DNA of 64,000 nt from Synechococcus sp. PROS-7-1 (GTDB taxonomy: Bacteria; Cyanobacteriota; Cyanobacteriia; PCC-6307; Cyanobiaceae). The position numbers and the translations under genes were made by a program. The stretch spans positions 1,570,572-1,634,571 of the forward strand of contig NZ_CP047945.1 of NCBI RefSeq assembly GCF_014279795.1, given 5' to 3'. Of this stretch, positions 46,024 to 64,000 are shown piece after piece; within the stretch, counting starts at the first letter, position 1, and each line of letters begins with the position of its first letter. The notes below the pieces were generated by a model, which had not been told where the DNA came from, made no database searches, and worked only from the letters and a program-made list of their open reading frames with translations.

Positions 46024-46035
46024 GGCTCTGTCCTG

Positions 46036-46758: not shown

Positions 46759-46794
46759 AACTGGGCCACGGACAACATTGAGCTGGGCCGCTAG

Positions 46795-47052
46795 CGAGCG
46801 AACAGTACGGCAGGACGTGCCATCCTTGATGCGCACACAGTGGAACCCGATCGTGTGCAATGGGGACGTGCTTTGAATGGCATCGACGAGAGCGATGAAA
46901 GCGTGGTCAGGCTGACGCTGAAGCCGGGCCCCAGCAAATCTGGCGATGTAGTCCTCCAGCTCGCGAAACCGACGGATGGATCGAATGAGATTCAGATGGT
47001 GACCTATGACACCAACAGCAACATGAATGGCAATAACCGCGACCTCACATGA
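46795..47052 (+). pseudogene. Possible remnant coding segment without a good start
   Basis: The frame from after TAG 46792 to the TGA at 47052 reads AGRAILDAHTVEPDRVQWGRALNGIDESDESVVRLTLKPGPSKSGDVVLQLAKPTDGSNEIQMVTYD and ends Asn-rich. The composition (Asp, Glu, Ser, Gly, Val) is that of a real soluble or surface protein, unlike the Ile/His/Arg-rich opposite frame, but only a GTG (46840) could start it. It may be a 3' remnant of a gene interrupted or deleted in this region, or a short lineage-specific gene. Nothing else was seen in the interval up to 47081. Confidence 0.35.
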
Positions 47053-47081
47053 GTGCACTAACAAGTGCAAACAAACAAAAC

Positions 47082-48452
47082 TTACTCGCGGAAAGCGTCG
47101 CCGAAACCACGACGAATTGGCCCCAATAAATACAGAAACAGGTTTGTACGATCAGTCAAAATGTCAGCCGTGAGGGTCATTCCTGGAACGAGCAGATTCT
47201 TGCTTTTGTCTTTACCTGCGAAATCACGATCGAGCCTTGCACGAACCTTGTAATAAGGTTCACCTGTTTTTTCATCCTGAAAGGTTCCAGCTGAAATCGA
47301 TTTCACATAGCCTGGCACAGTGCCGAATCGGCTGTAGTCGTAGGCCTGAACTTTCATCTCTACTCTTTGGCCGACAGAGACATTGCCGATATCAGCAGGC
47401 TTGACACGTAAAAATCCTTCCAGCTCGTCACCCACAGGAACCACCTCAGCAACAACACTCCCAGGTGCAATCACACCACCCAAGGTATTGACTGTGTAGC
47501 TCTTAACAATGCCATCAACAGGGGAACGCACCTGCAAGCGCTCGACCTCATCAAGCTGCTGACCAAGCACACTTTGGAGCTCCGCCTTTTCACTGGTTAC
47601 ATCAGCAAGTTGTTCAAAAATGTCGGTTCGCAATTTTGAACGCAACTCAAGACGCTGGGTTTGCGTTTCTTGAATGGTTCCATCCAACTCTGCCAAAAGC
47701 GTTTCAGTTGAAGCAATCCGACGTTCGGCTTCCAGCACATCGTTGTGAGCAATCGCACCGGCTTTGTCGAGCGATTCATAGGCCTTCGTTTGCTCTTTGA
47801 GCAAAGCAACCTCATCAAGGTATTCTCGGCGCTTGGCCTGCAAAGTGGCAAGCCGTTGATCAGCAATCAAAATCTGGCGTTGAATATCCTTCGCCTTCTG
47901 ATCAAGAAGATCAGCGAAAGCTTTCTCGACCTCCGCAGACGGTTTAGACGGCGTGCGCTGATCGCCATTCATCGGATCCTGTCCAAGAGCCTTACGTAAT
48001 TCACGCTGCTCCAAGGTGAGATTGGTAATCCGGGTTGCAGTTTGTTGTTCTTGAGAACCGATTTCACCCTCTGCAAGCTTCAGAAGAATCTCACCTTTAC
48101 GAACACGCTCTCCTTCCTCAACAAGCTGTGCACGAATAATGCCTCCCTCAAGATGCTGGACTTTTTGAACATCGCCTGCTGGCTCAATCTCACCAGAGGC
48201 AATGACGTAGTTCTGAATAGGAATCAGCGCAGAAACCACTATTGAACTTGCGAAAACAACTGTTGAACCCAGAAGCCATCGCAACAAATTTGGAGGAACC
48301 TGACCTGCCTCTAGAGACAAAGCCTCAGCCCGTCGTCCATGCCCAAAGGCCTGGTCCGTTTCATCAGCCTGCATTTGCCAAAGAGAGATGTCATTGGCAT
48401 CGGGAGGATCAGGCTGACCAAGCGAACTTGGATTGGGGGATGAGAGAGACAT
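47082..48452 (-). CDS. HlyD-family membrane-fusion protein of a type I secretion system
   Basis: 456 residues from ATG 48452. A cytosolic start of about 58 residues, a membrane helix near 59-77 (LLGSTVVFASSIVVSALIPI), the lipoyl half VQHLEGGIIRAQLVEEGERVRKGEILLKL, a long coiled coil of about 200 residues, the second half (LQVRSPVDGIVKSYTVNTLGGVIAPGSVVAEVVP) and the terminal beta barrel (LVPGMTLTADILTDRTNLFLYLLGPI). This matches HlyD/LapC-type adaptors that link an ABC exporter to TolC. It lies 37 bases downstream of two ABC genes on the same strand, so the three probably form one operon. No TolC gene is in the window. Confidence 0.93.
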   Translation of the reverse strand: MSLSSPNPSSLGQPDPPDANDISLWQMQADETDQAFGHGRRAEALSLEAGQVPPNLLRWLLGSTVVFASSIVVSALIPIQNYVIASGEIEPAGDVQKVQHLEGGIIRAQLVEEGERVRKGEILLKLAEGEIGSQEQQTATRITNLTLEQRELRKALGQDPMNGDQRTPSKPSAEVEKAFADLLDQKAKDIQRQILIADQRLATLQAKRREYLDEVALLKEQTKAYESLDKAGAIAHNDVLEAERRIASTETLLAELDGTIQETQTQRLELRSKLRTDIFEQLADVTSEKAELQSVLGQQLDEVERLQVRSPVDGIVKSYTVNTLGGVIAPGSVVAEVVPVGDELEGFLRVKPADIGNVSVGQRVEMKVQAYDYSRFGTVPGYVKSISAGTFQDEKTGEPYYKVRARLDRDFAGKDKSKNLLVPGMTLTADILTDRTNLFLYLLGPIRRGFGDAFRE

Positions 48453-48489
48453 GATTTGGATGGATGGTGAAAACTAAAAAGGTTGAGGC

Positions 48490-50622
48490 TTAGACCGCAA
48501 AGGAATGACCACCTGATGAAGCCTTTGGAATTGACTGCATCTGAGCCTTTTTCTGAGTTTCGAGAAGATCTTGAGGTGAACCTGAAAAGGCCACACAACC
48601 AGCCTTCAATAAAATAATTTGATCAGCAATCTGAAGAAGCTGTGGATCATCAGATGCCACAATTGTGGTCCCAGAGCCACGCCGTTGTCTCAAAAGCTGG
48701 CACAATGAAGTTGCTCCCACCGTATCCAAGTTTCTAAAGGGGTCATCCATTAATAATATCGAGGAACGCCTTAAAAACAAACGTGCTATAGAAATTGCCT
48801 GAACCTGATAGATCGGCAACGCGTTGGGCCCCTGACTACTCACAAGGCGATCCAAGCCAGAGCCTAGAAGCAAATCTCCGAGACCCACTGCCAAAAGAAC
48901 CTCTTTAATCGCATCGTCGGTAGCGAAAGGATCAACGATGAGCATGTTTTCTCTGAGACTTGCACTAAAAAGCCCAGGCTTTTCCGGTAAATAGTCAATC
49001 GCTTCGCGCAGCTGGGACAATGGAAACTGACGAGAATCAGAGCCATCAAAGAGAATCAACCCACTGCCTGGCTTTAATTGACTATCGAGTAGACGGAGAA
49101 CTGATGACGTGCCTGCGCCCTCAGGCCCAGACAGTACAACCAACGTGCCAGCATCAACACTAAAACTAGCTTGTATCAATGCTGGATCTTGAAGCGCACT
49201 TAATCGCAGTGTTACATTCTTGAGTTCCAAAGCACCACGCGGCAATGGCAGCACCCACCGCTGGCTTGTCGATGTTTTTGTCTCCACATCCGTTGCAGCC
49301 ATTAAACGATTAAGTTGATCAAAATTAGGCTTAATTTGAGACCAACGGCTTAAGGCTTGATATCCCATCTGAATAGGCCTGAAAACACGCCAGACAAAAA
49401 ACATTGCCGCAATCATCGTCCCAAGTTGAATGCCACTACCGCCGGCAATCGCTAATCCAGCCCCAGTTGCCAGAACCAGGGCACCTGTTAATTGAGAAAA
49501 TTCACCAGTAAGAATCGACAGCAACTGCTGAAGTCTCAAAGGAGCGAGACCCTGAATAACAGCTTCACTGGATGCACGCTCAATCTTTGCATGCCAGATT
49601 CTCTCCATTCCAGTGCGCTTAATACGCTCATGATGATCAAGCAAATCAAGGAGCAAAGGTTCTAAATTTGAAGGATTACGAGTTAGAGGTTTCTGAACAG
49701 CGCGGGCAGCTCTACCAACAATATAAATGCCACCAAAACAGATCAATACCATGGCAAGAGTGAGCACCATCAGGGGGACACTCATCAAGCCAATTGCAAT
49801 CAAATAAATACCGATGAAAGGGAGATCCAATGTTGCCTGAGCCAGGGGCCCGGTAACATACGCACGAAGTCCCTGAAATCCCCTGAGCCGACTCGCCAAA
49901 GAAAGAGGTGTGTACCTCTCAAGTTGAGGAAGCCTTAAACACATCAACTTCTCAAGGACACGAATACAGATCGTGATGTCCAGTTCAGCGCCAAGATCAG
50001 CCAGTCGGGCTTGACGACGCTGAGTTAACCACATCTGCAGGATCACAGCCAATGCGGCAAAGGGCAATAAACCAAAGAGATCACTCACCTGTCCACCAGG
50101 AATTTCCAAGTTGTAAACAGCCCGTATGTAGAAGGGTAGAACTAGACCAAGCAGAGTGATAAAAAGAGACAATACATAAAGCTCAGCAATACTGCCACGG
50201 AAACGAAGAACCTGTGCCTGAAACCACTGCTTTTGCTCTGCAAGATTTTGCGGCTCAAACCTAAAGCTGAAGACGAACAAGCGGCGAAGTCGGGGTAATG
50301 CATCGACCAGCTCTTGTTGATTATTAATCAGTAGAAATTCTCTACGATGCTGCCTACAAACCAAAACCGGGAAGTCCAGAGGAGGCAACTGACTGGGCGT
50401 CAATACACCACGGAGACGACTGACATCCCAACGAAAACCAAGGTTGGCCATGGTGTTCAAAAGATCAACATCATCCATATGCTGGGGAGTACCACTCAGG
50501 GCATTGCGCAGCTGAACAGGCTCTCCTATCCAAGAGAGCCCCTGCAGCAGTTCAGGCAATAACCTCGCTGCTGGAGATTCGCTGGAGGCCAGAAGCTGAA
50601 AAAACTCATTTCGACTGATCAT
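48490..50622 (-). CDS. T1SS ABC exporter with C39-like domain and degenerate ATPase site
   Basis: 710 residues. Order: an N-terminal C39-like domain without catalytic Cys (about 1-130; DVDLLNTMANLGFRWDVSRLRG), six-helix exporter membrane domain (about 155-430), and nucleotide-binding domain (about 470-690). The ATPase site is degraded: Walker A is GPEGAGTSS with Thr in place of the essential Lys, Walker B is ILLMDDPF (Asp for the catalytic Glu), the signature LSGGQ is replaced by LPIYQ, and the H-loop His is Asp in IVASDDPQ. ATG 50622 overlaps the stop of the upstream ABC gene by four bases. It probably forms a pair with that gene's product to export the giant protein next door. Confidence 0.9.
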   Translation of the reverse strand: MISRNEFFQLLASSESPAARLLPELLQGLSWIGEPVQLRNALSGTPQHMDDVDLLNTMANLGFRWDVSRLRGVLTPSQLPPLDFPVLVCRQHRREFLLINNQQELVDALPRLRRLFVFSFRFEPQNLAEQKQWFQAQVLRFRGSIAELYVLSLFITLLGLVLPFYIRAVYNLEIPGGQVSDLFGLLPFAALAVILQMWLTQRRQARLADLGAELDITICIRVLEKLMCLRLPQLERYTPLSLASRLRGFQGLRAYVTGPLAQATLDLPFIGIYLIAIGLMSVPLMVLTLAMVLICFGGIYIVGRAARAVQKPLTRNPSNLEPLLLDLLDHHERIKRTGMERIWHAKIERASSEAVIQGLAPLRLQQLLSILTGEFSQLTGALVLATGAGLAIAGGSGIQLGTMIAAMFFVWRVFRPIQMGYQALSRWSQIKPNFDQLNRLMAATDVETKTSTSQRWVLPLPRGALELKNVTLRLSALQDPALIQASFSVDAGTLVVLSGPEGAGTSSVLRLLDSQLKPGSGLILFDGSDSRQFPLSQLREAIDYLPEKPGLFSASLRENMLIVDPFATDDAIKEVLLAVGLGDLLLGSGLDRLVSSQGPNALPIYQVQAISIARLFLRRSSILLMDDPFRNLDTVGATSLCQLLRQRRGSGTTIVASDDPQLLQIADQIILLKAGCVAFSGSPQDLLETQKKAQMQSIPKASSGGHSFAV

Positions 50623-52250
50623 GCTTGAACCTCCACGAGTCGATCTCCCTTCCAGCAGACGCGACGGATCGAGGATGGCAATTGAGACGGTGCACTCTGC
50701 AAGGCAATCAAACGAGCACAATCAACATCAAGGCCTAACAACCAATTCAGGGATTCAATACCAATTTTCGGGAAGGTGCCATCGAGATACAGAGCAAAAG
50801 GTTTATCGAGAAGGGCCTGAATCACACCCATGCGAAAGCGCAAGCCAGCAGACAATGGATAATCCTGCATTTCTCCAATGATGGTGTCATAGCCCATGGG
50901 TAGGTTTTTAATATCGCTCGCAACACCATGCAATTCACAAAGTGCAACAGCATCAGATGCACGGCTGTTGACTTCAAAGCCTGTGAGCGACTCCAAGAGT
51001 GTTCCCCGAAAAGGCTGAGGGTCTGATTTGAGGCGCACCAAATGACGTCTCAACCAAGTTTTACGAAAGGTCGATAACAATTCACCACCAACGCGAAGCT
51101 CGTAAGGAGAATCAGTCGTTGCTGCTTCCATCGCATTCAAAAGTGCGGTGGATTGACCGGCATGACCACCCAGCAAAAGCATTGCCTCACTTGGCCGTAA
51201 GTCTTGACCAGCGAAATGCAGTGTTGTATCCACTGGTCGCTCATCACACCCAACGAGAAGATTTTTCTCTTGAGGAAGATCGAGTAACTGCTGTAAATCC
51301 AGAGACGACTGCTGATACGCGGCTCTCTGACCGTCAGCAGAAAAAAGCTTGCCCAATGGGGCTGTGACTTGACCACTAAGGAGTGTGCAGGCGGCAAGAG
51401 CACCGGTCGTGAGGTCTTGGTTGATCACCAACCAACCTCCAATACTCACAATCAAGAGTTGGTTCAGCTGAGAAAACAATGCCGAAAGATTCTGCAACTT
51501 TGCAGTTGATGACTCTTGCCGAAAAGTACTCTGACTTAATCTTTCCTGCAGAGGCTCCAGACGGCGAATCAAAAATCCTTCTAGATTCAGAGTTTTTATC
51601 GTAGAAGATAACCCCAACCCGTTGACCACAAGCTGATTACGTCCGACCTCCAGATCGTGATGCAAACGAGTACTTTGAACGATTTCACGTACAGAACTAT
51701 TTGCCAGTATCACAAAGATCGGGGCTAAAAGCAGTGGCGGCAAAAACAGCCAACCTCCGATGACACCAAGAACAATGAGATAGAGAAGCGAGAACGGCAA
51801 GTCGACATAACGCACGATCCATTGCTGCTCTAAGTAATTACGAAGCGATGTTGGACTTCGCAACTGGGCCATCCTGGCCTTGAGGGGCTGCTGACCAACG
51901 GCTTGCGAGGAAGCACCCAGTACGGCACGAACAGCCTCCATTCGCAAACGATGCTCCGTCGAAGCGGCTAGCCATGACAACACCCAGGCACGGATCCCCT
52001 TCAGCACAACGTCAAGAACAAGGACGCAAGCCAGTACAAGCGTGATCCCTGCAAGACTGTCTCCCGCCTGCTCAGGAACAACTGAGGTGTAAATCCGATT
52101 GATATAAAGCGGAATCGCGAGCACGATCAGATTGATGACAATCGTGGCCGCAACCAGCGAAATCAAATCCCTGCCTTGCCAACCAGAGCTCAATGCATGA
52201 ATCCTGGCTTGGATCGATGGAGCGGCCGAAGCTTGGTGACTCGCACCCAC
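50619..52250 (-). CDS. Second T1SS ABC exporter protein, degenerate ATPase site
   Basis: 543 residues from GTG 52250. It has an exporter-type membrane domain from the start (LISLVAATIVINLIVLAIPLYINRIYTSVVPEQAGDSL is the type I secretion pattern) but no C39-like domain. The C-terminal nucleotide-binding domain is shortened and degraded: Walker A is GGHAGQST with Gln for Lys, the signature is LSAGLRFRM, Walker B is FALYLDGTF (Gly for the catalytic Glu), and no H-loop His is seen (ALQSAPSQ). The 131-base divergent space to the giant gene suggests co-regulation. Together with the next gene it forms two non-identical halves of one exporter (inference). Confidence 0.88.
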   Translation of the reverse strand: MGASHQASAAPSIQARIHALSSGWQGRDLISLVAATIVINLIVLAIPLYINRIYTSVVPEQAGDSLAGITLVLACVLVLDVVLKGIRAWVLSWLAASTEHRLRMEAVRAVLGASSQAVGQQPLKARMAQLRSPTSLRNYLEQQWIVRYVDLPFSLLYLIVLGVIGGWLFLPPLLLAPIFVILANSSVREIVQSTRLHHDLEVGRNQLVVNGLGLSSTIKTLNLEGFLIRRLEPLQERLSQSTFRQESSTAKLQNLSALFSQLNQLLIVSIGGWLVINQDLTTGALAACTLLSGQVTAPLGKLFSADGQRAAYQQSSLDLQQLLDLPQEKNLLVGCDERPVDTTLHFAGQDLRPSEAMLLLGGHAGQSTALLNAMEAATTDSPYELRVGGELLSTFRKTWLRRHLVRLKSDPQPFRGTLLESLTGFEVNSRASDAVALCELHGVASDIKNLPMGYDTIIGEMQDYPLSAGLRFRMGVIQALLDKPFALYLDGTFPKIGIESLNWLLGLDVDCARLIALQSAPSQLPSSIRRVCWKGDRLVEVQA

Positions 52251-52381
52251 AACTGCGTTGCGTCAATTCCCAAAAGGTAGTGCCATTCAACCAATTTGGC
52301 AGGCTTTTCATAACCGAACGGACTAGTGCCAAAGCGCTTGGAAGCAAATAGGTTGAGGGCTAGCGTCGGTTCTTCTGTGGT
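52251..52381. promoter_or_regulatory. Divergent space between exporter operon and giant gene
   Basis: 131 bases with no gene, between the GTG of the second ABC protein (minus) and the ATG of the giant protein (plus). It should contain promoters for both units. I see no clear -35/-10 pair or Shine-Dalgarno sequence; TAG codons at about 52350 and 52362 close the giant frame upstream and fix ATG 52382 as its start. Confidence 0.4.
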
Positions 52382-55300
52382 ATGGACCCATTCAATGAAA
52401 CGCCAAACAGTCAGGCCGCTGGAGCAGGAGCTCCAGGATCTGAGAATGCTGAGGGTGGACCGGGAACAGAGGAGTCCTCCAAGAGCGCAGCCACCCAGGC
52501 AACCAACAACGGGACATTGGTAGATCGCATTAAAAGACGACTGGGGCTTGAAAATCTCCATAGCGGGTCCCGGGAAGCTTACGAAGCCGAGAGCAAACCC
52601 AGCGATATCAAAGAGAAGGCAACCTCACAAAGCAACGAAACAACCGGCCTACCCCAACACAGCGAAGAATTACCCTCAATTCAATCCAGCGCTTTTGAAC
52701 GCAGCTCTCTTAATCTCAGCGAAAGTCTTGAGAGCAAAGATATAAGTGGCTCCCGCCAGAACCTTGCTGCAGCAAACTTTGACGCCCCTGCCAAGGGAAC
52801 TGAGACAAAGTCTTCAGAGCCCAACTCGAATACTGAACAGCCAACAAGCGAACACTCTGCAGCCAATGCTTCCTCAACTATTGGATTTGCAGACAAACGC
52901 ATCGACAGCAGTGAGACAGACCAAAATAATTCTGAAAATCCAACAACAAGTTCTAAACAAAGTAAGTTCACTAACGAATCAAGGCTTGACCAAGACAAGG
53001 AGATAGACGACAAGGACAATCGCTCATCATCGCAAAGCACAATTTTTAGGGAGCAACACTCCTCTGACCTACCACCCCATATCACGGATAATGCAGTAAA
53101 CAAAAATAATTCAAATGTTGTTAATAATCCCTTGAGAATTCCCCCATGGAGCTCTCACTCTCAGCATGGCTTCTCTGATGCAGATGAATCTGCGTCGTTG
53201 AAAGAAGATTCCTCCATCGCTGGAAATCTCCTCACAGGCACCTCTTCACCAGATGGGCCCGTCTCCATCCAAGATTTCTCCATCGATGGTCTGCCTGGAC
53301 AATTCACTCCAGGACAAACTGCCAATATCCCAGGCGTCGGATCCTTCTCTCTCGACTCCTCAGGCTCCTACTCATTCACTCCGGATCAAAATTGGAATGG
53401 ACCTGTCCCTTCCATTCACTACACCGTCACCGACGGCTCGTCCACCGATCAATCCACACTCTCCCTCAACGTCACTCCCGTTGATGATCCTTTCAATGAT
53501 GCAGATGAATCTGCGTCGTTGAAAGAAGATTCCTCCATCGCTGGAAATCTCCTCACAGGCACCTCTTCACCAGATGGGCCCGTCTCCATCCAAGATTTCT
53601 CCATCGATGGTCTGCCTGGACAATTCACTCCAGGACAAACTGCCAATATCCCAGGCGTCGGATCCTTCTCTCTCGACTCCTCAGGCTCCTACTCATTCAC
53701 TCCGGATCAAAATTGGAATGGACCTGTCCCTTCCATTCACTACACCGTCACCGACGGCTCTTCCACCGATCAATCAACACTCTCCCTCAACGTCACTCCC
53801 GTTGATGATCCTTTCAATGATGCAGATGAATCTGCGTCGTTGAAAGAAGATTCCTCCATCGCTGGAAATCTCCTCACAGGCACCTCTTCACCAGATGGGC
53901 CCGTCTCCATCCAAGATTTCTCCATCGATGGTCTGCCTGGACAATTCACTCCAGGACAAACTGCCAATATCCCAGGCGTCGGATCCTTCTCTCTCGACTC
54001 CTCAGGCTCCTACTCATTCACTCCGGATCAAAATTGGAATGGACCTGTCCCTTCCATTCACTACACCGTCACTGACGGCTCTTCCACCGATCAATCAACA
54101 CTCTCCCTCAACGTCACTCCCGTTGATGATCCTTTCAATGATGCAGATGAATCTGCGTCGTTGAAAGAAGATTCCTCCATCGCTGGAAATCTCCTCACAG
54201 GCACCTCTTCACCAGATGGGCCCGTCTCCATCCAAGATTTCTCCATCGATGGTCTGCCTGGACAATTCACTCCAGGACAAACTGCCAATATCCCAGGCGT
54301 CGGATCCTTCTCTCTCGACTCCTCAGGCTCCTACTCATTCACTCCGGATCAAAATTGGAATGGACCTGTCCCTTCCATTCACTACACCGTCACCGACGGC
54401 TCTTCCACCGATCAATCAACACTCTCCCTCAACGTCACATCGATTAACGACAAGCCAGTATTCAGCTCCACACTGGTCTATCCAGCAATTGAAGGTGGCG
54501 CGATTCGCAGTGGTCAACTGACGGTCACTGATCCTGATGATCCTCAAGCATCTCTGATTATTTCAGCCGTATCACCTCATAATCTCCCAGCAGGCTTTGC
54601 CATCAATCCCGATGGTTCCTGGTCCTTTGATCCCAAAAACCCCACTTACAACCATCTCCACCAAGGGCAACAGCAACAAATCCTCGTCAACCTCCAGGTC
54701 ACCGATCCCCACGGCGGCTCCTCTCAGCAGCAGCTCACCATCAATCTCACCGGCACCAATGATGGGCCCACTCTTCAATCCATCACCGATGCCAACGCGA
54801 AAGAAGATGGTCCCCAAATCCAAGGACAACTGAACGCCACTGATCCTGATACTGGCGATCAACTCTCCTTCTCTCTCGCCAGCGGGCAATCTCTACCCGA
54901 TGGCTTTGCCATCGATCCCAAGGGCTCCTGGTCCTTCGATCCAAGCCACTCCGCCTACAACCATCTCCAAGAAGGCCAACAGCAAGACATCCTCGTCAAC
55001 CTCCAGGTCACTGATTCACAAGGCGCATCCCAACAAAAACTCCTCACCATCCATCTCACTGGCACCAATGATGGGCCCACTCTTCAATCCATCACCGATG
55101 CCAACGCGAAAGAAGATGGTCCCCAAATCCAAGGACAACTGAACGCCACTGATCCTGATACTGGCGATCAACTCTCCTTCTCTCTCGCCAGCGGGCAATC
55201 TCTACCCGATGGCTTTGCCATCGATCCCAAGGGCTCCTGGTCCTTCGATCCAAGCCACTCCGCCTACAACCATCTCCAAGAAGGCCAACAGCAAGACATC

Positions 55301-58300
55301 CTCGTCAACCTCCAGGTCACTGATTCACAAGGCGCATCCCAACAAAAACTCCTCACCATCCATCTCACTGGCACCAATGATGGGCCCACTCTTCAATCCA
55401 TCACCGATGCCAACGCGAAAGAAGATGGTCCCCAAATCCAAGGACAACTGAACGCCACTGATCCTGATACTGGCGATCAACTCTCCTTCTCTCTCGCCAG
55501 CGGGCAATCTCTACCCGATGGCTTTGCCATCGATCCCAAGGGCTCCTGGTCCTTCGATCCAAGCCACTCCGCCTACAACCATCTCCAAGAAGGCCAACAG
55601 CAAGACATCCTCGTCAACCTCCAGGTCACTGATTCACAAGGCGCATCCCAACAAAAACTCCTCACCATCCATCTCACTGGCACCAATGATGGGCCCACTC
55701 TTCAATCCATCACCGATGCCAACGCGAAAGAAGATGGTCCCCAAATCCAAGGACAACTGAACGCCACTGATCCTGATACTGGCGATCAACTCTCCTTCTC
55801 TCTCGCCAGCGGGCAATCTCTACCCGATGGCTTTGCCATCGATCCCAAGGGCTCCTGGTCCTTCGATCCAAGCCACTCCGCCTACAACCATCTCCAAGAA
55901 GGCCAACAGCAAGACATCCTCGTCAACCTCCAGGTCACTGATTCACAAGGCGCATCCCAACAAAAACTCCTCACCATCCATCTCACTGGCACCAATGATG
56001 GGCCCACTCTTCAATCCATCACCGATGCCAACGCGAAAGAAGATGGTCCCCAAATCCAAGGACAACTGAACGCCACTGATCCTGATACTGGCGATCAACT
56101 CTCCTTCTCTCTCGCCAGCGGGCAATCTCTACCCGATGGCTTTGCCATCGATCCCAAGGGCTCCTGGTCCTTCGATCCAAGCCACTCCGCCTACAACCAT
56201 CTCCAAGAAGGCCAACAGCAAGACATCCTCGTCAACCTCCAGGTCACTGATTCACAAGGCGCATCCCAACAAAAACTCCTCACCATCCATCTCACTGGCA
56301 CCAATGATGGGCCCACTCTTCAATCCATCACCGATGCCAACGCGAAAGAAGATGGTCCCCAAATCCAAGGACAACTGAACGCCACTGATCCTGATACTGG
56401 CGATCAACTCTCCTTCTCTCTCGCCAGCGGGCAATCTCTACCCGATGGCTTTGCCATCGATCCCAAGGGCTCCTGGTCCTTCGATCCAAGCCACTCCGCC
56501 TACAACCATCTCCAAGAAGGCCAACAGCAAGACATCCTCGTCAACCTCCAGGTCACTGATTCACAAGGCGCATCCCAACAAAAACTCCTCACCATCCATC
56601 TCACTGGCACCAATGATGGGCCCACTCTTCAATCCATCACCGATGCCAACGCGAAAGAAGATGGTCCCCAAATCCAAGGACAACTGAACGCCACTGATCC
56701 TGATACTGGCGATCAACTCTCCTTCTCTCTCGCCAGCGGGCAATCTCTACCCGATGGCTTTGCCATCGATCCCAAGGGCTCCTGGTCCTTCGATCCAAGC
56801 CACTCCGCCTACAACCATCTCCAAGAAGGCCAACAGCAAGACATCCTCGTCAACCTCCAGGTCACTGATTCACAAGGCGCATCCCAACAAAAACTCCTCA
56901 CCATCCATCTCACTGGCACCAATGATGGGCCCACTCTTCAATCCATCACCGATGCCAACGCGAAAGAAGATGGTCCCCAAATCCAAGGACAACTGAACGC
57001 CACAGACCCTGATACTGGCGATCAACTCTCCTTCTCTCTCGCCAGCGGGCAATCTCTACCCGATGGCTTTGCCATCGATCCCAAGGGCTCCTGGTCCTTC
57101 GATCCAAGCCACTCCGCCTACAACCATCTCCAAGAAGGCCAACAGCAAGACATCCTCGTCAACCTCCAGGTCACTGATTCACAAAGCGCATCCCAACAAA
57201 AACTCCTCACCATCCATCTCACTGGCACCAACGACAAGCCGACGCTGAATGCAATCACAAGAGGGGTGCTCACAGAACTAGAAGGACAAGGGCAGGCGAA
57301 TCAAGAACAAACAAGCGGCTTAAGTGGCAATCTGAAGAGCCAAGACTTCGACGACAACGAGCAGCAAGCACTCGTCTACGGAATCCGGGGGAGCCAGAGC
57401 GGCAGCTTTGACCTCAATGGCACCCACTTTGACCTGATGAAGGCGGGAAGCTACGGGACCGCCTATCTGAACAGCAAGACAGGTGCCTATGAATACATCC
57501 CCGATCATGCGAAGGTGGAATCTCTCCATCATGGCGAGCATCAGCAAGAAAACTTCCGGATGACCGTGACTGACGGGCATCAGCAATCTGTAACCAGTCA
57601 CAATTGGCGCATTATTCTCAATGGCGGTGAAGACAAACCTGTCTTCACCGATGGGCCTCAGCAAACCGCCATTGAGGATCAAACCAGAAGAGTCAGCGGC
57701 CAGCTGAATGTTGTCGACGCCGATAAGAACGAAAGTCAGTTCCTCGGTGAAAGAATTCCAGGCAGCCACGGCACTCTGGTCATAAAGCCCGATGGAACCT
57801 GGACCTATCAACTGAAGAGTGGTAGTAGTGATCCTCAAGTCGATGCTTTGAACCCTACGGAAAAGCTGACAGAGCAGATCACGGTGCACAGCCAGGATGG
57901 AACCAGCCATCAACTCACGATCCTCATTGAGGGAACCAATGATGCACCGACACTCCATATTTCACCTGCGATCCAAACAGTCAGCGAAGACAGCAATAAT
58001 GGCCTGAGAGGCCAGATCCAAGGTCAGGATGTTGACCATCAAGCTGTGATCCATTACGAGCTGGTTGACCAGAATGGTCATCCCAGCACTGCACCAGCTG
58101 GCTTCCACTTCGATAGCCAGACCGGCACCTGGAGCTTTGACCCAACAGATTCCGCCTACCAAAACCTGAACCCCGGCGAGCACAAGGATCTCAACATCTA
58201 CGTGGTGGCAGTGGATGAGCACCAAGCCACATCGCCCATCCAACATCTGAACTTGCGCGTGACAGGGGAGAACGACATCCCTACGGCCCAGCATAGGGAT

Positions 58301-61300
58301 CTCCAAGCGGTGAATGAGGATCAGAGAGTAACGATTTCAGAAACCGAACTTCTCAAACAGTTGGGAATCACAGACGTCGACCAGCGCACTCACCTCCACA
58401 TCACGGATCTGACGAGTTCAACGAGTCGATGCCGGATCACCCCACTTGGAAACGGACAATACCAAATTCATCTGCCACGAAACTGGAACAGCGACGAGCA
58501 TCAAGGAAATGGCATTGCCTTAGCACTCAAGGTGGATGATGGAACCACGACAACAACATTCCAGGCCTCAATGCATGTGAACGCGGTTAACGATAGACCG
58601 ACAGCCTTGGATATCCACTTCCAGCCAATCGTCGAAGACACCTCACTGAGCTTCACCGAAGAGGATTTACTTCGCGGTAGCAAGGCTCAAGACGTCGACC
58701 GAGCAGATAATCAGAATTTGATCATCGAGCCTGGCAGCGTGATGCTGACCGACCCAACACTAGGGAGCCTGAACTTTGATAAGACCGCTAATACCTGGGT
58801 CTTCCAACCTGCAGCAAATTGGAACAGTCCAGACCATGCTGGCCAAAAAGTTCAGATTCAATTCAAAGTGCAGGACCCCTCTGGGGCGACTGTGACCAAG
58901 ACGGCCTCAGTAGAAGTGACGCAACAACAAGATGTGGCGATTATTACGGACCAAGCAAAAGACCACACCGTTACCGAAGTCAATCAAGGACCTGCCAGCA
59001 GCTGCAACGGACAACTGCAGGTGTCGGATGTTGACAAAGGCGAAGATCACTTCAGGGGCCAATCAACGATATTGTCGGCACATCAATATGGCACGGCACA
59101 CATTGATAGCACTGGCCAGTGGGTTTATGAGCTCGATAGTGCAAATCCAGCTGTCAATCAGTTAGCGGCTGGGCAACAACTGACTGACAGCTTCGAGGTG
59201 CACTCTGCCGATGGCACCACCCACACAGTGACCATCCAAATCCGAGGAACCAACGATCTTCCTGTCGTTGCTCCCATCGCAGATCTGATCACGAATGAAG
59301 ATGGGGGCCCCCAATCTGGTCATTTCCTCGCAACTGACGTCGATCTAGGTGAAAACCCAACATTCAGCCTCGATCCGAATAATCATCCGATTCCAGGCCT
59401 AACAGTTCAACCTGATGGGAGCTGGAGTTTTGATCCATCGCAATATGGTTACCTTGGAACGGGTGAAATCCTCGACAAGAAAGTTGTCCTACTGGTGAGC
59501 GATGGCAATCACAACCCAGTCAAGGTTGAATACCACATCCAGGTAGAGGGGCGTAACGATGCACCCACCGTGCAAACCGTGACCCAACCCTTGGTCATCG
59601 GGCAAGAGGATGGAGGTAGTCATAACCCCAACACCTGGATCCACGGCAGTAGCACAGGAAGCGGAAGTCTTCACTTCAGCAATCAAGATTTGCTGACCCA
59701 CATCCATGCTCAAGATCCAGATACTACAGATCAATCGAACTTGCATGTAATTGGAGCAAAGCTCAACTGGCCTGGCCACACTGCCGCAGATCTTCAACAT
59801 GCTGGGCATCTAATCCAAGACGGCAATGGCAACTACGAGTTTGTACCCGCACACAATTTCAGTGGAACGATTCAGATCCAATTTTTAGTGACGGATGGCA
59901 AAGAGAAGGTGTCCAGCACAGTCAATCTTCAAGTTGACCCCGTCAACGATGCACCGCATGCGATTCATCATTGGCTAGGAAGCACAGGCAAAGGCGGATT
60001 TGACTTTACGGCCAAGGATCTGATCGCAGGCAGTAACGATGTGGATAGCCCTAATACCATGATCGCTTTAGCTGCAATTCCCTCGGTGCCCTCGAATCAA
60101 GGGACGATCCAAGATCTTGGCAATGGTCATTACCATTTTGAGCCTAATCCAAACTATCAGACTGTTGGTCATATCAATATTCACTATCAATTGACAGACG
60201 GACAGGATGCAGGAAATCCTGCCAACGCGTCATTCCACTTTGACCCGAGCTTGCCGAGTGGACTGAAGCCACCAGCACTGATCCGAGATGTTCAGCATCA
60301 GGATGCCTATGAAGACCTTGATCCAAGCAAGATCGACCCGACTCTACCGGTTTCAGGAGAGGGAAGTGGTCAACTACAGGCCATAGATCCCGGAACACAT
60401 CAAATAATCGGATTCAAGAACGGGACGACCACCCTTCCCAACGTGGGTGTCTTCCATGTTGACTCCAATGGTCACTGGACTTTCACGCCTGACTACGCGA
60501 AATTGCAACACCTCAATGCAGGGAAAAGCGAGCATCATTGGTTCACGATAGAAACCACTGATGGAACTCGCTATCAGCAGAAAATCACGATCCATGGCCT
60601 GGATGATCCAGGACAACTAAACATGGGAAAACTGCTGAGCGTGACAGAGGATGACCCGAACGTTGATCATCGAAAATGCAGCGGCACGGTGACCCTTAAG
60701 GACCCTGATGACGGTCAGCATAGCTTCAACGGAGAGAACGGATTGATGGGCCAATATGGCGTACTAAAACTAGAACCCAATGGCACATATCACTATGAAT
60801 TGTTCACACACAACCAGAAACTTGACGCACTTGACCAAAGTCAAGTTGTGAAGGAATCTTTTGTTTTACACGAACGCGATGGCAGTGAAATCAAACAACA
60901 TTTGGAGATCCAAGTAATTGGCACCAATGATGCGCCAGTCATCACCGGTGTGAGCTCTGCCACCGTTGATATGAGCCAGAGCCATCCCCTCGCCAATGGC
61001 AGCGTGAATGCCTTTGATCCTGACGCACATGATCAACTGAGCTATGCACTAGGAGCCCTGGATCCCAGTCTTTTTCCGCATGGCTTGGCTGGCTTCCAGA
61101 TTGATCAGAGCGGAAATTGGAGTTTTGATCCCAGTCAATCCCAACTACCGCCGCTGCCACCCGGGCAATCACAAACACTCCATATCCCGATTGTGGTCAG
61201 CGACCATCATGGAGCGTCAACATCAGGACACATCGAAATACAACTTACCGGGAACACACAGAATCACCCACCCACAGTCAGCGTCACACAAGTCAATCTC

Positions 61301-64000
61301 ATCCCTCAAAATCTCTTCACAGAAGACAAAGACATCGTACTAAATATAGCTGACTTACTGAGTCAGGCTGGCGCCACAGACCTAGACCACGACAGACTTG
61401 GGATTGTAGATCTGCAACTCAGCGATCCCTCCCTGGGGCATTTCACAGACGATGGCAAGAGGCATATTACTTTTCATCCCAATGCGAATGTCAACACGGA
61501 CGGAAGCACATTCAGTTTCAGTTACCGCGTGACCGATGGCCAAGAAAAATCAGGTGTAGTCACAATCACCGCCAGGCTCGATGCAGTGAATGACAATCCG
61601 ATTATCGATGCTCAACTGGCCAAGGCTGGCCTTGGACATACCGATGAAGAAGTAGCAAAAACTTTTACCGCTGCGGATCTCCTGATGATGTGCACTGATG
61701 TTGATATAGCCACCAATCACGATCAACTTTCCATTGTGGGAACACCCACTGTAGCCCCTGCCGAAGGGAGCATTATGGAGAAACCAACGAACAGCGGAAC
61801 TTACATCTTTACACCAGCACAGAATTTCAACGGGCAGGCTCATATTCAATTTACAGTACAAGACTCTCAAGGTGCACAGGTATCAGGAAGCACCGAAATT
61901 AAGGTTGCTGCTTTACAGGATGCGGCTGTGATTACGCTGGATCGCCCCAGCAATCCACAAGTCACAGAAGATCAAGGTGGATCCGCAGCACCAATCCTGC
62001 AGGGTCATCTGAACATTCACGATGATGACGGAGCCAGCGACGAGAAGTTCCGCGCCAGCAATAATATCCAGGGAACCTTCGGCTATCTAACACTCACCCA
62101 GGATGGGCAGTGGACCTATGTTCTCCAAGAAAATGGCCAAGATACGGTGCAAGGCCTTGCCAAAAACGAGCACCTCACAGAAACCATTCATTTAGAAAGC
62201 AAGGACGGCACCGGCTATGACCTGCAGATTCAAATCCTGGGGTCCAATGATCCAGCCAAGATCATCGGAGCTGCGAGCGCAACACTCGATACCCAAACCG
62301 GATTACAAACGAGTGGAACCATTTCCGTTCAAGATCGCGACAAGAGCGAGGCAGGCCATACCCAAACGGAGACTGGATCTTCAGCCAATGGCTATGGCAT
62401 GTTCAGCGTGGATGGTGACGGAAACTGGAGTTACCAGCTCATCCCAGGTGACTCGCGGATCGCTGCCTTACCAGCCGGCAGGACTGTAACCGACAGCTTC
62501 GTGCTTCATTCCGTTGACGGCACTGCTGCCCGCACGATCACGGTGACGATTGTTGGCAAAAACGATGGGCCAGTGATTGACCAAGCACACATCAGCGGCT
62601 TCCCAGTGCTGCCGGGCCATGAAGATCAAACTCGCATAATCACATCCCAGGAACTACTGGCTGGGATCACCGATCCTGATGGCGACAGCCTCTCCATCAC
62701 CTCCATCAGTGTTGACCCTTCCCAGGCTGGATCCATAAGCGCCGATCCACAGCACCCTGGGCAGTATCTCTTCAAGCCAGCTGCAGATTTCAATGGCTCA
62801 GTTCAGTTCCAATACAACGTGACGGATGGAAATGGCGGCAGTGTGAAACAAACCGCCTCAATGCTCGTCACTCCCGAGAATGATGCGCCGATCTTCAGCA
62901 ATGGAAGCAACGCATTCGCGGGACGTGTCGATGAAGATGGCACAGCCAGCACCCTAATAACCCAAGGCCAGGTCAATGCAACTGATGTTGATCAAGATAA
63001 GCTCAGTTTTAATCTCGTCCACGGTCATGACATTGGAGGTGGTATCAGCGAACTCGTTCTCGCTGAAGGCATCTTTCAAATGAATCGCACTTCGGGAAAA
63101 TGGTCGTTCAAATTGAACAATGCCAATCCCCAGGTATCGGCCCTTAATGATGGAGATGTACTTCCAATTAGCACCATGATTGAAGTGAGTGATGGCCAGG
63201 TCAAGAGTCAACAGCATGCATTGAATGTGACCGTGCATGGCCACACCGATGGACCCAGCGTTGGTGCTCAACCCCCTGCCGTGATCGTCGGTGAACAAGG
63301 AAGCGGTTATCAGAGCAGCAGTGTTCAGAATCTGAATCTTCAAGCGGGAGATCTACCCATCACGGATCTGGCCCTTGCCCTGCCTGCTCAGTTTGGAAAC
63401 CAACCGATCGCGGGAATCCCCCACTGGCGGGTTGAGCAGGGAACGGGAGATCTCATTGGCAGTGTTAACGAGAATGGCACTTCGGTGGATACCGTTCGGC
63501 TCCATCTCATGCCCCACGGTGCCATTCAGGCCCACAGCAGCGGCGTGGTTCAAGTGCAGATCAACCTGCTGCATGATCTCAACCACCAGGGCAGTCTTGA
63601 TCTTCAAGGGTTTGAAGTTCAGGCCGGTGATGGACAAGGCCATCAGGTTGCCACGACATTCGGATTTAACGTTGCCGATGGAACGGCCAGCATTACAGGC
63701 GTTCCGCTCTTTGCCGGACAGGCCAGTCCGGCACCTGGAGTGCATCAAGGAGCCTTCCAAGTGGACGGCGCTGATGTGATGGGTGGTTCCTTGCTGCTCT
63801 CGATCGGCGGCCTCGCCCAACACAACGCCTTCATTGGAACCGACACCGATGGTGATGGACTCCTTGATCAATTCCAGGAATCAACCCCATGGGGCAACCT
63901 GGAAGTCTTGATGAATCCCCAGACAGGGAAGGGCACATGGAGCTTCCAGGAAGGACTTGCCTATGACCCACAACAACCGCCCCAGATCCAACTGGGTTTC
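52382..64000 (+). CDS. Giant repeat-rich surface/adhesin protein (runs off the window)
   Basis: At least 3,873 residues in one open frame from ATG 52382, without a stop by the right edge. Residues 1-265 are low-complexity, rich in Ser, Asn, Glu, Thr and Gln, with no signal peptide. Residues 266-693 are four near-identical 107-residue cadherin-like repeats (TPDQNWNGPVPSIHYTVTDG); after a divergent unit, residues 791-1614 are eight near-identical 103-residue repeats (GTNDGPTLQSITD, ATDPDTGDQLSFSL, DPKGSWSFDPSHSAYNHL). The remainder is a series of diverged VCBS/cadherin-like domains with repeated GTNDAP-type joints, and near the edge a calcium-type loop DTDGDGLLDQF. It is probably exported through the adjacent T1SS to the cell surface; the C-terminal secretion signal lies outside. 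Confidence 0.93.
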   Translation, partial: MDPFNETPNSQAAGAGAPGSENAEGGPGTEESSKSAATQATNNGTLVDRIKRRLGLENLHSGSREAYEAESKPSDIKEKATSQSNETTGLPQHSEELPSIQSSAFERSSLNLSESLESKDISGSRQNLAAANFDAPAKGTETKSSEPNSNTEQPTSEHSAANASSTIGFADKRIDSSETDQNNSENPTTSSKQSKFTNESRLDQDKEIDDKDNRSSSQSTIFREQHSSDLPPHITDNAVNKNNSNVVNNPLRIPPWSSHSQHGFSDADESASLKEDSSIAGNLLTGTSSPDGPVSIQDFSIDGLPGQFTPGQTANIPGVGSFSLDSSGSYSFTPDQNWNGPVPSIHYTVTDGSSTDQSTLSLNVTPVDDPFNDADESASLKEDSSIAGNLLTGTSSPDGPVSIQDFSIDGLPGQFTPGQTANIPGVGSFSLDSSGSYSFTPDQNWNGPVPSIHYTVTDGSSTDQSTLSLNVTPVDDPFNDADESASLKEDSSIAGNLLTGTSSPDGPVSIQDFSIDGLPGQFTPGQTANIPGVGSFSLDSSGSYSFTPDQNWNGPVPSIHYTVTDGSSTDQSTLSLNVTPVDDPFNDADESASLKEDSSIAGNLLTGTSSPDGPVSIQDFSIDGLPGQFTPGQTANIPGVGSFSLDSSGSYSFTPDQNWNGPVPSIHYTVTDGSSTDQSTLSLNVTSINDKPVFSSTLVYPAIEGGAIRSGQLTVTDPDDPQASLIISAVSPHNLPAGFAINPDGSWSFDPKNPTYNHLHQGQQQQILVNLQVTDPHGGSSQQQLTINLTGTNDGPTLQSITDANAKEDGPQIQGQLNATDPDTGDQLSFSLASGQSLPDGFAIDPKGSWSFDPSHSAYNHLQEGQQQDILVNLQVTDSQGASQQKLLTIHLTGTNDGPTLQSITDANAKEDGPQIQGQLNATDPDTGDQLSFSLASGQSLPDGFAIDPKGSWSFDPSHSAYNHLQEGQQQDILVNLQVTDSQGASQQKLLTIHLTGTNDGPTLQSITDANAKEDGPQIQGQLNATDPDTGDQLSFSLASGQSLPDGFAIDPKGSWSFDPSHSAYNHLQEGQQQDILVNLQVTDSQGASQQKLLTIHLTGTNDGPTLQSITDANAKEDGPQIQGQLNATDPDTGDQLSFSLASGQSLPDGFAIDPKGSWSFDPSHSAYNHLQEGQQQDILVNLQVTDSQGASQQKLLTIHLTGTNDGPTLQSITDANAKEDGPQIQGQLNATDPDTGDQLSFSLASGQSLPDGFAIDPKGSWSFDPSHSAYNHLQEGQQQDILVNLQVTDSQGASQQKLLTIHLTGTNDGPTLQSITDANAKEDGPQIQGQLNATDPDTGDQLSFSLASGQSLPDGFAIDPKGSWSFDPSHSAYNHLQEGQQQDILVNLQVTDSQGASQQKLLTIHLTGTNDGPTLQSITDANAKEDGPQIQGQLNATDPDTGDQLSFSLASGQSLPDGFAIDPKGSWSFDPSHSAYNHLQEGQQQDILVNLQVTDSQGASQQKLLTIHLTGTNDGPTLQSITDANAKEDGPQIQGQLNATDPDTGDQLSFSLASGQSLPDGFAIDPKGSWSFDPSHSAYNHLQEGQQQDILVNLQVTDSQSASQQKLLTIHLTGTNDKPTLNAITRGVLTELEGQGQANQEQTSGLSGNLKSQDFDDNEQQALVYGIRGSQSGSFDLNGTHFDLMKAGSYGTAYLNSKTGAYEYIPDHAKVESLHHGEHQQENFRMTVTDGHQQSVTSHNWRIILNGGEDKPVFTDGPQQTAIEDQTRRVSGQLNVVDADKNESQFLGERIPGSHGTLVIKPDGTWTYQLKSGSSDPQVDALNPTEKLTEQITVHSQDGTSHQLTILIEGTNDAPTLHISPAIQTVSEDSNNGLRGQIQGQDVDHQAVIHYELVDQNGHPSTAPAGFHFDSQTGTWSFDPTDSAYQNLNPGEHKDLNIYVVAVDEHQATSPIQHLNLRVTGENDIPTAQHRDLQAVNEDQRVTISETELLKQLGITDVDQRTHLHITDLTSSTSRCRITPLGNGQYQIHLPRNWNSDEHQGNGIALALKVDDGTTTTTFQASMHVNAVNDRPTALDIHFQPIVEDTSLSFTEEDLLRGSKAQDVDRADNQNLIIEPGSVMLTDPTLGSLNFDKTANTWVFQPAANWNSPDHAGQKVQIQFKVQDPSGATVTKTASVEVTQQQDVAIITDQAKDHTVTEVNQGPASSCNGQLQVSDVDKGEDHFRGQSTILSAHQYGTAHIDSTGQWVYELDSANPAVNQLAAGQQLTDSFEVHSADGTTHTVTIQIRGTNDLPVVAPIADLITNEDGGPQSGHFLATDVDLGENPTFSLDPNNHPIPGLTVQPDGSWSFDPSQYGYLGTGEILDKKVVLLVSDGNHNPVKVEYHIQVEGRNDAPTVQTVTQPLVIGQEDGGSHNPNTWIHGSSTGSGSLHFSNQDLLTHIHAQDPDTTDQSNLHVIGAKLNWPGHTAADLQHAGHLIQDGNGNYEFVPAHNFSGTIQIQFLVTDGKEKVSSTVNLQVDPVNDAPHAIHHWLGSTGKGGFDFTAKDLIAGSNDVDSPNTMIALAAIPSVPSNQGTIQDLGNGHYHFEPNPNYQTVGHINIHYQLTDGQDAGNPANASFHFDPSLPSGLKPPALIRDVQHQDAYEDLDPSKIDPTLPVSGEGSGQLQAIDPGTHQIIGFKNGTTTLPNVGVFHVDSNGHWTFTPDYAKLQHLNAGKSEHHWFTIETTDGTRYQQKITIHGLDDPGQLNMGKLLSVTEDDPNVDHRKCSGTVTLKDPDDGQHSFNGENGLMGQYGVLKLEPNGTYHYELFTHNQKLDALDQSQVVKESFVLHERDGSEIKQHLEIQVIGTNDAPVITGVSSATVDMSQSHPLANGSVNAFDPDAHDQLSYALGALDPSLFPHGLAGFQIDQSGNWSFDPSQSQLPPLPPGQSQTLHIPIVVSDHHGASTSGHIEIQLTGNTQNHPPTVSVTQVNLIPQNLFTEDKDIVLNIADLLSQAGATDLDHDRLGIVDLQLSDPSLGHFTDDGKRHITFHPNANVNTDGSTFSFSYRVTDGQEKSGVVTITARLDAVNDNPIIDAQLAKAGLGHTDEEVAKTFTAADLLMMCTDVDIATNHDQLSIVGTPTVAPAEGSIMEKPTNSGTYIFTPAQNFNGQAHIQFTVQDSQGAQVSGSTEIKVAALQDAAVITLDRPSNPQVTEDQGGSAAPILQGHLNIHDDDGASDEKFRASNNIQGTFGYLTLTQDGQWTYVLQENGQDTVQGLAKNEHLTETIHLESKDGTGYDLQIQILGSNDPAKIIGAASATLDTQTGLQTSGTISVQDRDKSEAGHTQTETGSSANGYGMFSVDGDGNWSYQLIPGDSRIAALPAGRTVTDSFVLHSVDGTAARTITVTIVGKNDGPVIDQAHISGFPVLPGHEDQTRIITSQELLAGITDPDGDSLSITSISVDPSQAGSISADPQHPGQYLFKPAADFNGSVQFQYNVTDGNGGSVKQTASMLVTPENDAPIFSNGSNAFAGRVDEDGTASTLITQGQVNATDVDQDKLSFNLVHGHDIGGGISELVLAEGIFQMNRTSGKWSFKLNNANPQVSALNDGDVLPISTMIEVSDGQVKSQQHALNVTVHGHTDGPSVGAQPPAVIVGEQGSGYQSSSVQNLNLQAGDLPITDLALALPAQFGNQPIAGIPHWRVEQGTGDLIGSVNENGTSVDTVRLHLMPHGAIQAHSSGVVQVQINLLHDLNHQGSLDLQGFEVQAGDGQGHQVATTFGFNVADGTASITGVPLFAGQASPAPGVHQGAFQVDGADVMGGSLLLSIGGLAQHNAFIGTDTDGDGLLDQFQESTPWGNLEVLMNPQTGKGTWSFQEGLAYDPQQPPQIQLGF
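53177..54460 (+). repeat. Tandem repeat A: four 321-bp units
   Basis: Units begin at 53177, 53498, 53819 and 54140, each with GATGCAGATGAATCTGCG. They differ at only a few, mostly synonymous, positions (for example GGCTCG versus GGCTCT, and CACCGAC versus CACTGAC). The last diverges in its final 20 bases. Each encodes a 107-residue cadherin-like module of the giant protein. Near identity at DNA level indicates recent duplication or gene conversion. Confidence 0.97.
54752..57223 (+). repeat. Tandem repeat B: eight 309-bp units
   Basis: Units begin at 54752, 55061, 55370, 55679, 55988, 56297, 56606 and 56915, each starting GGCACCAATGATGGGCCC and encoding 103 residues. Copies are almost identical in DNA; visible differences are in the last unit (CACAGACCC for CACTGATCC near 57000, and AAAGCGC for AAGGCGC near 57184) and in the first, whose region around 54,950 matches the rest. 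A diverged unit with a different DNA sequence precedes them (54449-54751). The exact copy number should be regarded as tentative if short reads were assembled. Confidence 0.97.
57224..64000 (+). repeat. Diverged VCBS/cadherin-like repeats of the giant protein
   Basis: This part of the giant gene holds protein-level repeats that share joints such as GTNDAPTL, NDAPVI, VTDG and the strand pattern GTWTYQL or GSWSFDPSQ, but have little DNA identity. Units vary from about 95 to 120 residues. No frameshift was found in the places checked (58.8, 61.0, 62.0 and 63.2 kb). Asp/Asn-rich loops may bind calcium. Confidence 0.8.

Follow-up and report, generated by a model that had tools for sequence, protein, structure and literature searches.

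We describe two adjacent genes of Synechococcus sp. PROS-7-1 that encode the halves of a putative ABC exporter in which both composite ATP sites look dead, as judged from the residues present, and in which the pair does not look like decay. Either cargo is moved without ATP use by the pair itself, or the pair draws its power from something else. The genes lie in a stretch of 64,000 nucleotides, here called the window, and the features of interest are as follows.

47082..48452, minus strand: HlyD-type membrane fusion protein, 456 residues (TIGR01843 type_I_hlyD, 285 bits; cut-off 208.65)
48490..50622, minus strand: ABC1, the half that partners ABC2, made up of an N-terminal domain (about 1-140), a transmembrane domain (TMD) and a nucleotide-binding domain (NBD); the start is taken as the ATG at 50622
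50619..52250, minus strand: ABC2, ABC exporter half without a CLD, 543 residues, GTG start; TMD about 28-330, NBD 331-543
52382..64000, plus strand: giant gene, likely substrate, divergent and extending beyond the window end; 4051 residues in all
53176-54438: tandem repeat inside the giant gene, 321 bp x 3.9
54593-57231: tandem repeat inside the giant gene, 309 bp x 8.5

ABC2 matched the Pfam family ABC_membrane (E 9.9e-17), and its ABC_tran score of 14.4 bits was under the 25-bit cut-off. The Walker A stretch reads LGGHAGQST (GGHAGQST being residues 361-368), the Walker B stretch is LYLDG (487-491), LSAGL stands where LSGGQ is absent, the Q-loop is altered too in the alignments, and the H-loop stretch, whose position is ambiguous by one residue, is without His. 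The ABC2 of one relative (L041) seems to retain AHR at the H-loop. A sequence-only reading of this DNA had claimed Gln for the Walker A Lys and Gly for the catalytic Glu. Gln366 occupies the Lys position when GQST is read on GKST, whereas ungapped MAFFT alignments place Ser367 there. In the AlphaFold2 model the helix after the Walker A loop already begins at 364, so the loop itself is altered. Since no register puts a Lys in the loop, the loss of Lys is firm, and it is only the identity of the replacement as Gln that depends on the register and is unsure by one residue. Both residues of the GQS stretch, Gln and Ser, are invariant in the five nearest ABC2 sequences, as against 64 invariant columns of the 213 in the NBD. 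The claim of Gly for Glu was borne out, with Asp490 ending the predicted Walker B strand (486-490) and Gly491 directly following. The C39-like domain that the same reading had called absent from ABC2 is indeed without a Pfam match, and only ∼30 residues precede the TMD. Misalignment as the cause of the apparent losses, a possibility that the reading had itself raised for Walker A, was rejected. The doubt amounts to one residue and concerns ABC2 only, and Walker B and all of ABC1 agree with the predicted secondary structure.

The partner is degenerate as well, as had been claimed. Numbered from its ATG, ABC1 has GPEGAGTSS at Walker A (499-507), where Thr505 begins the helix in place of Lys, LLMDD at Walker B (623-627), where Glu is replaced by Asp, and IVASDD at the H-loop, where Asp658 replaces His. 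LSGGQ is absent, the signature stretch being ALPIYQ, and the Q-loop is altered. Neither site of the pair has Lys, Glu and His intact. The N-terminal domain (about 1-140) is C39-like in size and is not recognized by Pfam. The listed open reading frame (48490-50721) begins too early, at a TTG; when started from the ATG at 50622, ABC1 shares the letters ATGA with the stop of ABC2, and this 4-bp overlap is present in 28 of 31 pairs. The best homologues found outside the cyanobacteria are alphaproteobacterial ABC2-ABC1 pairs or fusions (Roseospira, Rhodospira and other relatives) with the same gene order, and in seven of the alphaproteobacterial loci read the two halves are fused into one chain, which argues that ABC2 and ABC1 are partners. 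From the overlap, the conservation and the fusions we infer a heterodimer, in keeping with the earlier suggestion that the two proteins form a pair. Unlike the window pair, most of the alphaproteobacterial pairs have lost neither the Walker A Lys nor the Walker B Glu from either half, and His is mostly retained in both as well.

As a control, we aligned the other ABC_membrane proteins of the genome (E ≤ 0.001; one of them under the Pfam cut-off). All 13 keep the Walker A Lys; in 12 the motif is GxxxxGK[ST] and in one AGQSSGKTT. Elsewhere in the genome, at 650 kb, a pair of 731 and 704 residues looks like a heterodimeric exporter with one degenerate site. The predicted models of ABC2 and ABC1 have an exporter-type TMD fused to an NBD fold (mean pLDDT of the two NBDs, 83.9 and 77.9), and the best PDB matches of the NBD models were PCAT1 and HlyB; such a prediction is weak evidence of fold, because the model is built from relatives.

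Of 400 family genomes, 31 carry the ABC2/ABC1 pair, at 33 places in all, and a gap in E-value from 8.6e-182 to 1.0e-67 separates these from the next match. Homologues in named genomes came from an alignment-based scan, a prior scan of these having given no match. Three rows with one ABC gene each and intact motifs (L123, L125 and L134) were not counted as pairs; L109 and L110, the same loci as L044 and L040, and other named cyanobacterial loci, largely on the same contigs as the G loci, were left out. Lys and Glu are missing from ABC2 in 32 of 32 cyanobacterial sequences read, which, together with the invariant Gln and Ser in the five nearest, speaks against chance as the cause of the lost Lys. 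In ABC1, Lys is missing in the six-operon clade that includes the window (clade I) and is kept in 25 of 25 members of its 25-operon sister (clade II), all 25 of which have Asp for Glu. The tree points to loss in steps: no cyanobacterial operon read retains Lys or Glu in ABC2, whereas Lys disappeared from ABC1 a single time, in the clade of the window. The sequence-only reading had called the losses in the two genes independent, which the tree does not support. Given the Glu-to-Asp change, hydrolysis was apparently lost in clade II too, and so the loss of turnover seems older than the loss of the second Lys.

Beside the operon stands the gene for a 4051-residue protein with cadherin-like and Ig-like repeats, which from its neighborhood is the likely substrate of ABC2, ABC1 and HlyD. 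Large open reading frames lie near the operon in all 11 loci checked, out of 33 operons, and cadherin, DUF5801 or RTX repeats were found in four of five scanned large neighbors as well as in the window's own. An N-terminal stretch of the form RIKRRLxLxNLHxG looks similar by eye in the neighbors of the window, G054, G260 and G101. TolC-like proteins are encoded in the genome. The operon region is a low-G+C island. The earlier reading had mentioned neither this giant neighbor nor the conservation and purifying selection of the pair.

On this basis we tentatively propose, giving it somewhat less than an even chance, a type I secretion system (T1SS) with two ABC halves, dedicated to the giant cadherin-repeat protein, in which ABC2 and ABC1 themselves do not hydrolyze ATP. 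The three minus-strand genes would form its inner-membrane half, with the ABC2-ABC1 heterodimer acting together with HlyD. Judging from the residues, neither composite site would hydrolyze ATP, and in the clade of the window there is probably no normal binding either. The NBD dimer would persist in a structural role, clamping the pore into shape and docking the substrate. The heterodimer would be a conduit gated by its substrate, and the chain would be threaded out via HlyD and a TolC-like protein, pulled by repeats folding outside (possibly calcium-dependent, by analogy with RTX proteins), perhaps with the proton motive force. Rather unlikely, though worth stating, is the strongest form of this reading, in which the heterodimer has abandoned ATP hydrolysis altogether, and in the clade of the window perhaps even the binding of ATP, and exports the ∼4000-residue protein independently of ATP, driven by folding outside, the proton motive force or both. 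We infer the substrate, the complex, the absence of ATP turnover and the energy source alike.

The pair might instead be a decaying pseudo-transporter heading to loss. Between two close relatives (L037 and L038) the NBDs evolve ∼2.4 times faster than the TMDs, with dN/dS values of 0.23 (ABC2) and 0.105 (ABC1) for the NBDs and 0.09 and 0.044 for the TMDs. With invariant columns in clade I ABC2 making up 30% of the NBD and 47% of the TMD, the relaxed constraint on the NBDs is real. The low G+C content, the ABC1 of L147 in clade II, which is short (514 residues) and split off from ABC2 by 585 bases, and one TGA flagged within the profile match of G236 could also be read as decay. However, these ratios indicate that the pair is under purifying selection, no stops were reported inside clade I ABC2 matches, ABC1 is full-length in all six clade I loci with complete sequence, and the seven clade I genomes carry three genus labels, all of which makes decay highly improbable. 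The HlyD-type protein has counterparts in L037 (87% identity) and L038 (85%), between which its dN/dS is 0.049. A pseudogene or sequencing error was likewise rejected, since the replacements are common to clade I orthologues and dN/dS is low. At least one site might still bind ATP via other residues, so that the pair would sense nucleotide as a slow or regulated gate and would not pump. Conserved residues stand in for the lost ones (Gln in five of five ABC2 and Thr in four of four ABC1), the P-loop glycines are mostly kept, and Arg stands at the ABC1 Lys position in L040 and L041 of clade I; the universal Lys of clade II ABC1 suggests that a binding-only stage may exist. We regard such residual use as improbable in the window, where Lys, Glu, His, Q-loop and signature are all altered at both sites.

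Power could also come from elsewhere, in that the dead heterodimer would select the substrate and an active, canonical HlyB-like homodimer encoded in the same genome would join the complex and supply the energy of ATP. An HlyD assembly can carry more than one ABC dimer, HlyB/HlyD being reported with three ABC transporters. Two canonical T1SS ABC proteins, L048 and L050, are encoded in the genome and have their motifs intact, and with one of them the pair may form a higher-order complex, and six of seven clade I genomes have a canonical match at E ≤ 1e-60. This co-occurrence says little, because canonical T1SS are common in family genomes without the operon too, 160 of the 400 genomes in all reaching that threshold. 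As a weak lead, the C-terminal tails of three clade I neighbors (DHSLLGS, DPSLLNV and DLSLLNS) resemble by eye the ends of small frames beside one canonical T1SS (DPNLLNSFGV and DPNLLNTFGI). A genome search with the tail pattern was uninformative, giving two matches (in frames of 39 and 17 residues) and five for the reversed control, and the pattern, because of its codons, missed the tail of the giant itself; nothing clear emerged in neighboring regions as a tail shared with the canonical cluster. Against a mixed engine, the operon has its own HlyD, and ABC2-ABC1 would seem, from the fused forms of relatives, to be a closed unit. A third, catalytically normal subunit, which the sequence-only reading had thought might undo its case, was not seen in the operon across the listed loci, apart from an ABC exporter frame of ∼580 residues on the opposite side of many clade II operons. 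On balance we consider a mixed engine unlikely. Less likely by far is that the pair only keeps the giant adhesin in the envelope or gates it there, by retention of the LapA type, while another T1SS exports it. The neighbor is adhesin-like and the N-terminal stretch recurs by eye in four neighbors, but in both halves conservation is highest in the TMDs, and the genome is without a match to the LapG protease (PF06035). Release of the LapG type was rejected, with no PF06035 match in this genome and a match in one of 14 control genomes (Caulobacter).

If the two-ABC system without its own hydrolysis is what this operon encodes, it bears on how ABC exporters, which are understood through ATP turnover, are viewed. 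A conserved pair, under purifying selection and without the needed residues in either half, would separate the roles of the NBD fold as scaffold, gate and dock from the role of ATP. The operons also form a series made by nature: the alphaproteobacteria have both sites furnished, the 25-operon clade has one Lys left and the clade of the window has none. In this series one can ask whether secretion of giant proteins depends on ATP at the ABC protein or is run by folding outside.

One degenerate site is a feature of heterodimeric ABC exporters such as TM287/288, TmrAB, BmrCD, TAP, and CFTR. Like these, the window pair would be a heterodimer, the pairing of its two different halves being suggested indirectly by the gene overlap and the fusions in relatives, and it has undergone site loss; in those proteins one site is consensus, whereas here both are degenerate. 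To our knowledge every characterized T1SS ABC protein needs ATP hydrolysis. The system is like the HlyB/HlyD (RTX) T1SS in its fold (HlyB and PCAT1 being top structural matches), in the HlyD-type partner in the operon (TIGR01843 over its cut-off), in the extra N-terminal domain on ABC1 and in neighbors with cadherin-like, DUF5801 or RTX repeats. It differs in having two ABC halves instead of one, with both NBDs lacking catalytic residues. Scores against the curated T1SS subfamilies of the HlyB/LssB/PrtD group, TIGR03375, TIGR01842, and TIGR01846 (cut-offs 693, 510 and 726 bits), fall far short, at 191, 144 and 99 bits for ABC2 and 285, 192 and 151 bits for ABC1. The available part of the T1SS literature describes these ABC proteins as powered by ATP hydrolysis, which counts against our proposal. 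No ABC exporter with both sites degenerate appeared among the literature matches listed, and the words "two degenerate" do not occur in the accessible portion of a review of degenerate sites. In gene layout the system resembles the four-component MARTX T1SS (RtxB, RtxD, RtxE, and TolC), which, in the text available, also has two related ABC proteins, one HlyD-type protein and a divergent giant substrate gene. According to that text, both of its ABC proteins bind ATP and are apparently necessary for secretion.

ABC2, an ABC exporter half without a CLD, lies with its partner half ABC1 and the membrane fusion protein HlyD beside a giant gene. The window's genome is a single contig of 2.57 Mb.

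50619-52250, minus strand: ABC2, 543 amino acids
48490-50622, minus strand: ABC1, 710 amino acids counted from ATG
47082-48452, minus strand: HlyD
52382 to beyond the window end, plus strand: giant gene, 4051 amino acids in all

The ABC2 and ABC1 genes are joined by an ATGA overlap. The two ABC proteins were aligned with canonical type I secretion system (T1SS) proteins from the same genome. Walker A of ABC2 has no Lys: the position reads Gln when GQST is set against GKST, and Ser in an ungapped alignment. In the same protein the Walker B Glu is Gly, the signature is LSAGL instead of LSGGQ, and the H-loop stretch has no His. The ABC1 changes are Walker A Lys to Thr, Walker B Glu to Asp, H-loop His to Asp, and Q-loop Gln to Glu, with ALPIYQ at the signature position. 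The ABC1 motifs and ABC2 Walker B agree with predicted secondary structure, and the ABC2 P-loop is shorter than usual in the predicted structure. Because each ATP site of a heterodimer combines Walker A and B of one half with the signature of the other, both composite sites of the pair are, judging from sequence, altered.

Among the 15 ABC_membrane matches in the window's genome, only ABC2 and ABC1 lack the Walker A Lys; the other 13 all keep it, and 11 have Asp-Glu at Walker B. At about 650 kb in this genome (L262) lies an ABC pair of 731 and 704 amino acids. One half has the Walker A Lys but Asp-Asn and no His, its partner carries Lys, Asp-Glu, and His, and the two look like an ordinary one-site-degenerate pair. 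Beside a canonical T1SS in the same genome (L048:2660-5606), a 286-amino acid ORF sits between two 298-amino acid ORFs whose printed ends are identical; all three end DPNLLN[ST]FG[VI].

An ABC2 profile built from 13 sequences, with three candidates scored per genome, matched at 33 places (E ≤ 8.6e-182), spread over 31 of the 400 genomes sampled from the family Cyanobiaceae. Named relatives in the family are Synechococcus, Cyanobium, and Vulcanococcus. The next match (1.0e-67) was a T1SS-sized protein in a 984-amino acid frame, and in a scan of 291 genomes of the class no match outside the family was better than 8.2e-63. The Walker A Lys and Walker B Glu were both missing in all 32 ABC2 sequences read (one, at a contig end, was left out). 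In the 31 ABC1 sequences the Walker B Glu was always missing (Asp in 26, His in 4, Ser in 1); the Walker A Lys was kept in 25/25 of one clade and gone in 6/6 of the clade holding the window.

Four ABC1 proteins (L037, L038, L039, L041) have His at the Walker B Glu and Asp or Glu at the H-loop His, a pattern resembling a swapped catalytic dyad; in the window both residues are Asp. In ABC2 of the 25-operon clade (L042, L043, L045, L046, L051, L052, L135-L153), the lost Walker A has become a fairly conserved motif, roughly D-x-x-F-G-x-x-x-R, and the signature is GLSxD. Two genomes carry both operon types (G101, L039 and L043; G054, L041 and L042), so the two types may be non-redundant. A contig labelled as a Flavobacteriales MAG (L115) has a Synechococcus-type operon with profile scores nearly equal to those of L046 and is probably mis-binned.

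A quick-method tree of 59 ABC2-ABC1 pairs, from transmembrane columns only, gave SH-aLRT values of 99 for the six-operon clade, 100 for the 25-operon clade, and 99 for both joined; the program warned of long branches, L041 and L190 among them, and no single branch cuts off the chosen outgroup: Bradyrhizobium and the two gammaproteobacterial pairs are placed within it. The minimum number of changes on this tree is one for the ABC1 lysine and three for the ABC2 lysine.

Outside cyanobacteria, the same pair has Lys and Glu in both halves at 5/5 loci (Roseospira, two in Rhodospira, Caenispirillum, and an unclassified alphaproteobacterium). The pairs of Bradyrhizobium, Gilvimarinus, and Aestuariicella have lost the ABC2 Lys and retained that of ABC1 (3/3). 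ABC2 relatives at 1e-75 occur in 84 of 199 genomes of Roseospira's order; at the best 30 loci the ABC2 Lys is kept in 28 and is Arg in two. At 20 loci read whole (17 of these 30 plus three chosen for long frames), ABC1 always keeps Lys, Glu, and His, and ABC2 keeps them in 18, 20, and 16, respectively. ABC2 and ABC1 are fused in seven of the 20, four of these among the best 30, and we counted 16 matches, out of 115 listed for the order, in frames of at least 1294 amino acids. The signature motif is already unusual in alphaproteobacterial relatives. Since these relatives mostly retain Lys, Glu, and His, a fully furnished heterodimer is likely the older state.

The nucleotide-binding domains are under constraint, weaker than that on the transmembrane domains, as shown by dN/dS in a single genome pair, L037 versus L038 (dS 0.3-0.6): 0.23 versus 0.09 in ABC2 and 0.105 versus 0.044 in ABC1, with 0.049 for HlyD. 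Window comparisons were dS-saturated and were excluded from the ratios.

G+C drops from 0.57-0.65 (about 0.62) to ∼0.50 from ∼46 kb on, covering operon and giant gene (46000-64000); psbD- and psbC-type genes lie at 43.3-45.7 kb. Given this drop and a dS against L037 of 2.1 (saturated) for the ABC genes versus 0.29 for psbC, lineages may have exchanged this island. Beyond HlyD, three relatives have a P-loop ORF of 363-373 amino acids, RecF-like by eye; none of this size was noticed in the ORF listing of the window at 45.7-47.1 kb.

L037:13329-14447, RecF-like ORF
L038:4043-5149, RecF-like ORF
L040:14840-15928, RecF-like ORF

A large ORF lies close to the operon at all 11 loci checked, out of 33 operons, and measures 788 to at least 4265 amino acids in ten of them. 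In G101 it is 687 + 965 amino acids with runs of N, and the one in G260 is separated from ABC2 by 2.2 kb that contain smaller ORFs. Pfam scans, of partly incomplete stretches, detected cadherin-like domains in the window and G193, DUF5801 in G054 and G044, and DUF5801 with RTX nonapeptides in G222; the 788-amino acid neighbor at L040 gave no Pfam match. Two tandem arrays in the window's giant gene (53176-54438, 321 bp × 3.9, 99%; 54593-57231, 309 bp × 8.5, 98%) consist of near-identical copies, which suggests recent amplification.

We favor a two-ABC secretion conduit that would export the giant neighbor without ATP hydrolysis. RTX proteins are reportedly pulled by calcium-driven folding outside the cell, and TolC-like proteins exist in the window's genome. 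Its leading competitor is a mixed complex, in which the altered pair would be joined by an active ABC protein from the same genome.

ABC exporters with one degenerate site are common. Among the matches listed in open-licence literature, a conserved, selected pair with both sites lost had no precedent. Two-ABC T1SS are already known from a MARTX review, and the arrangement of operon and giant gene here is similar to that of the MARTX systems, with their two ABC proteins.
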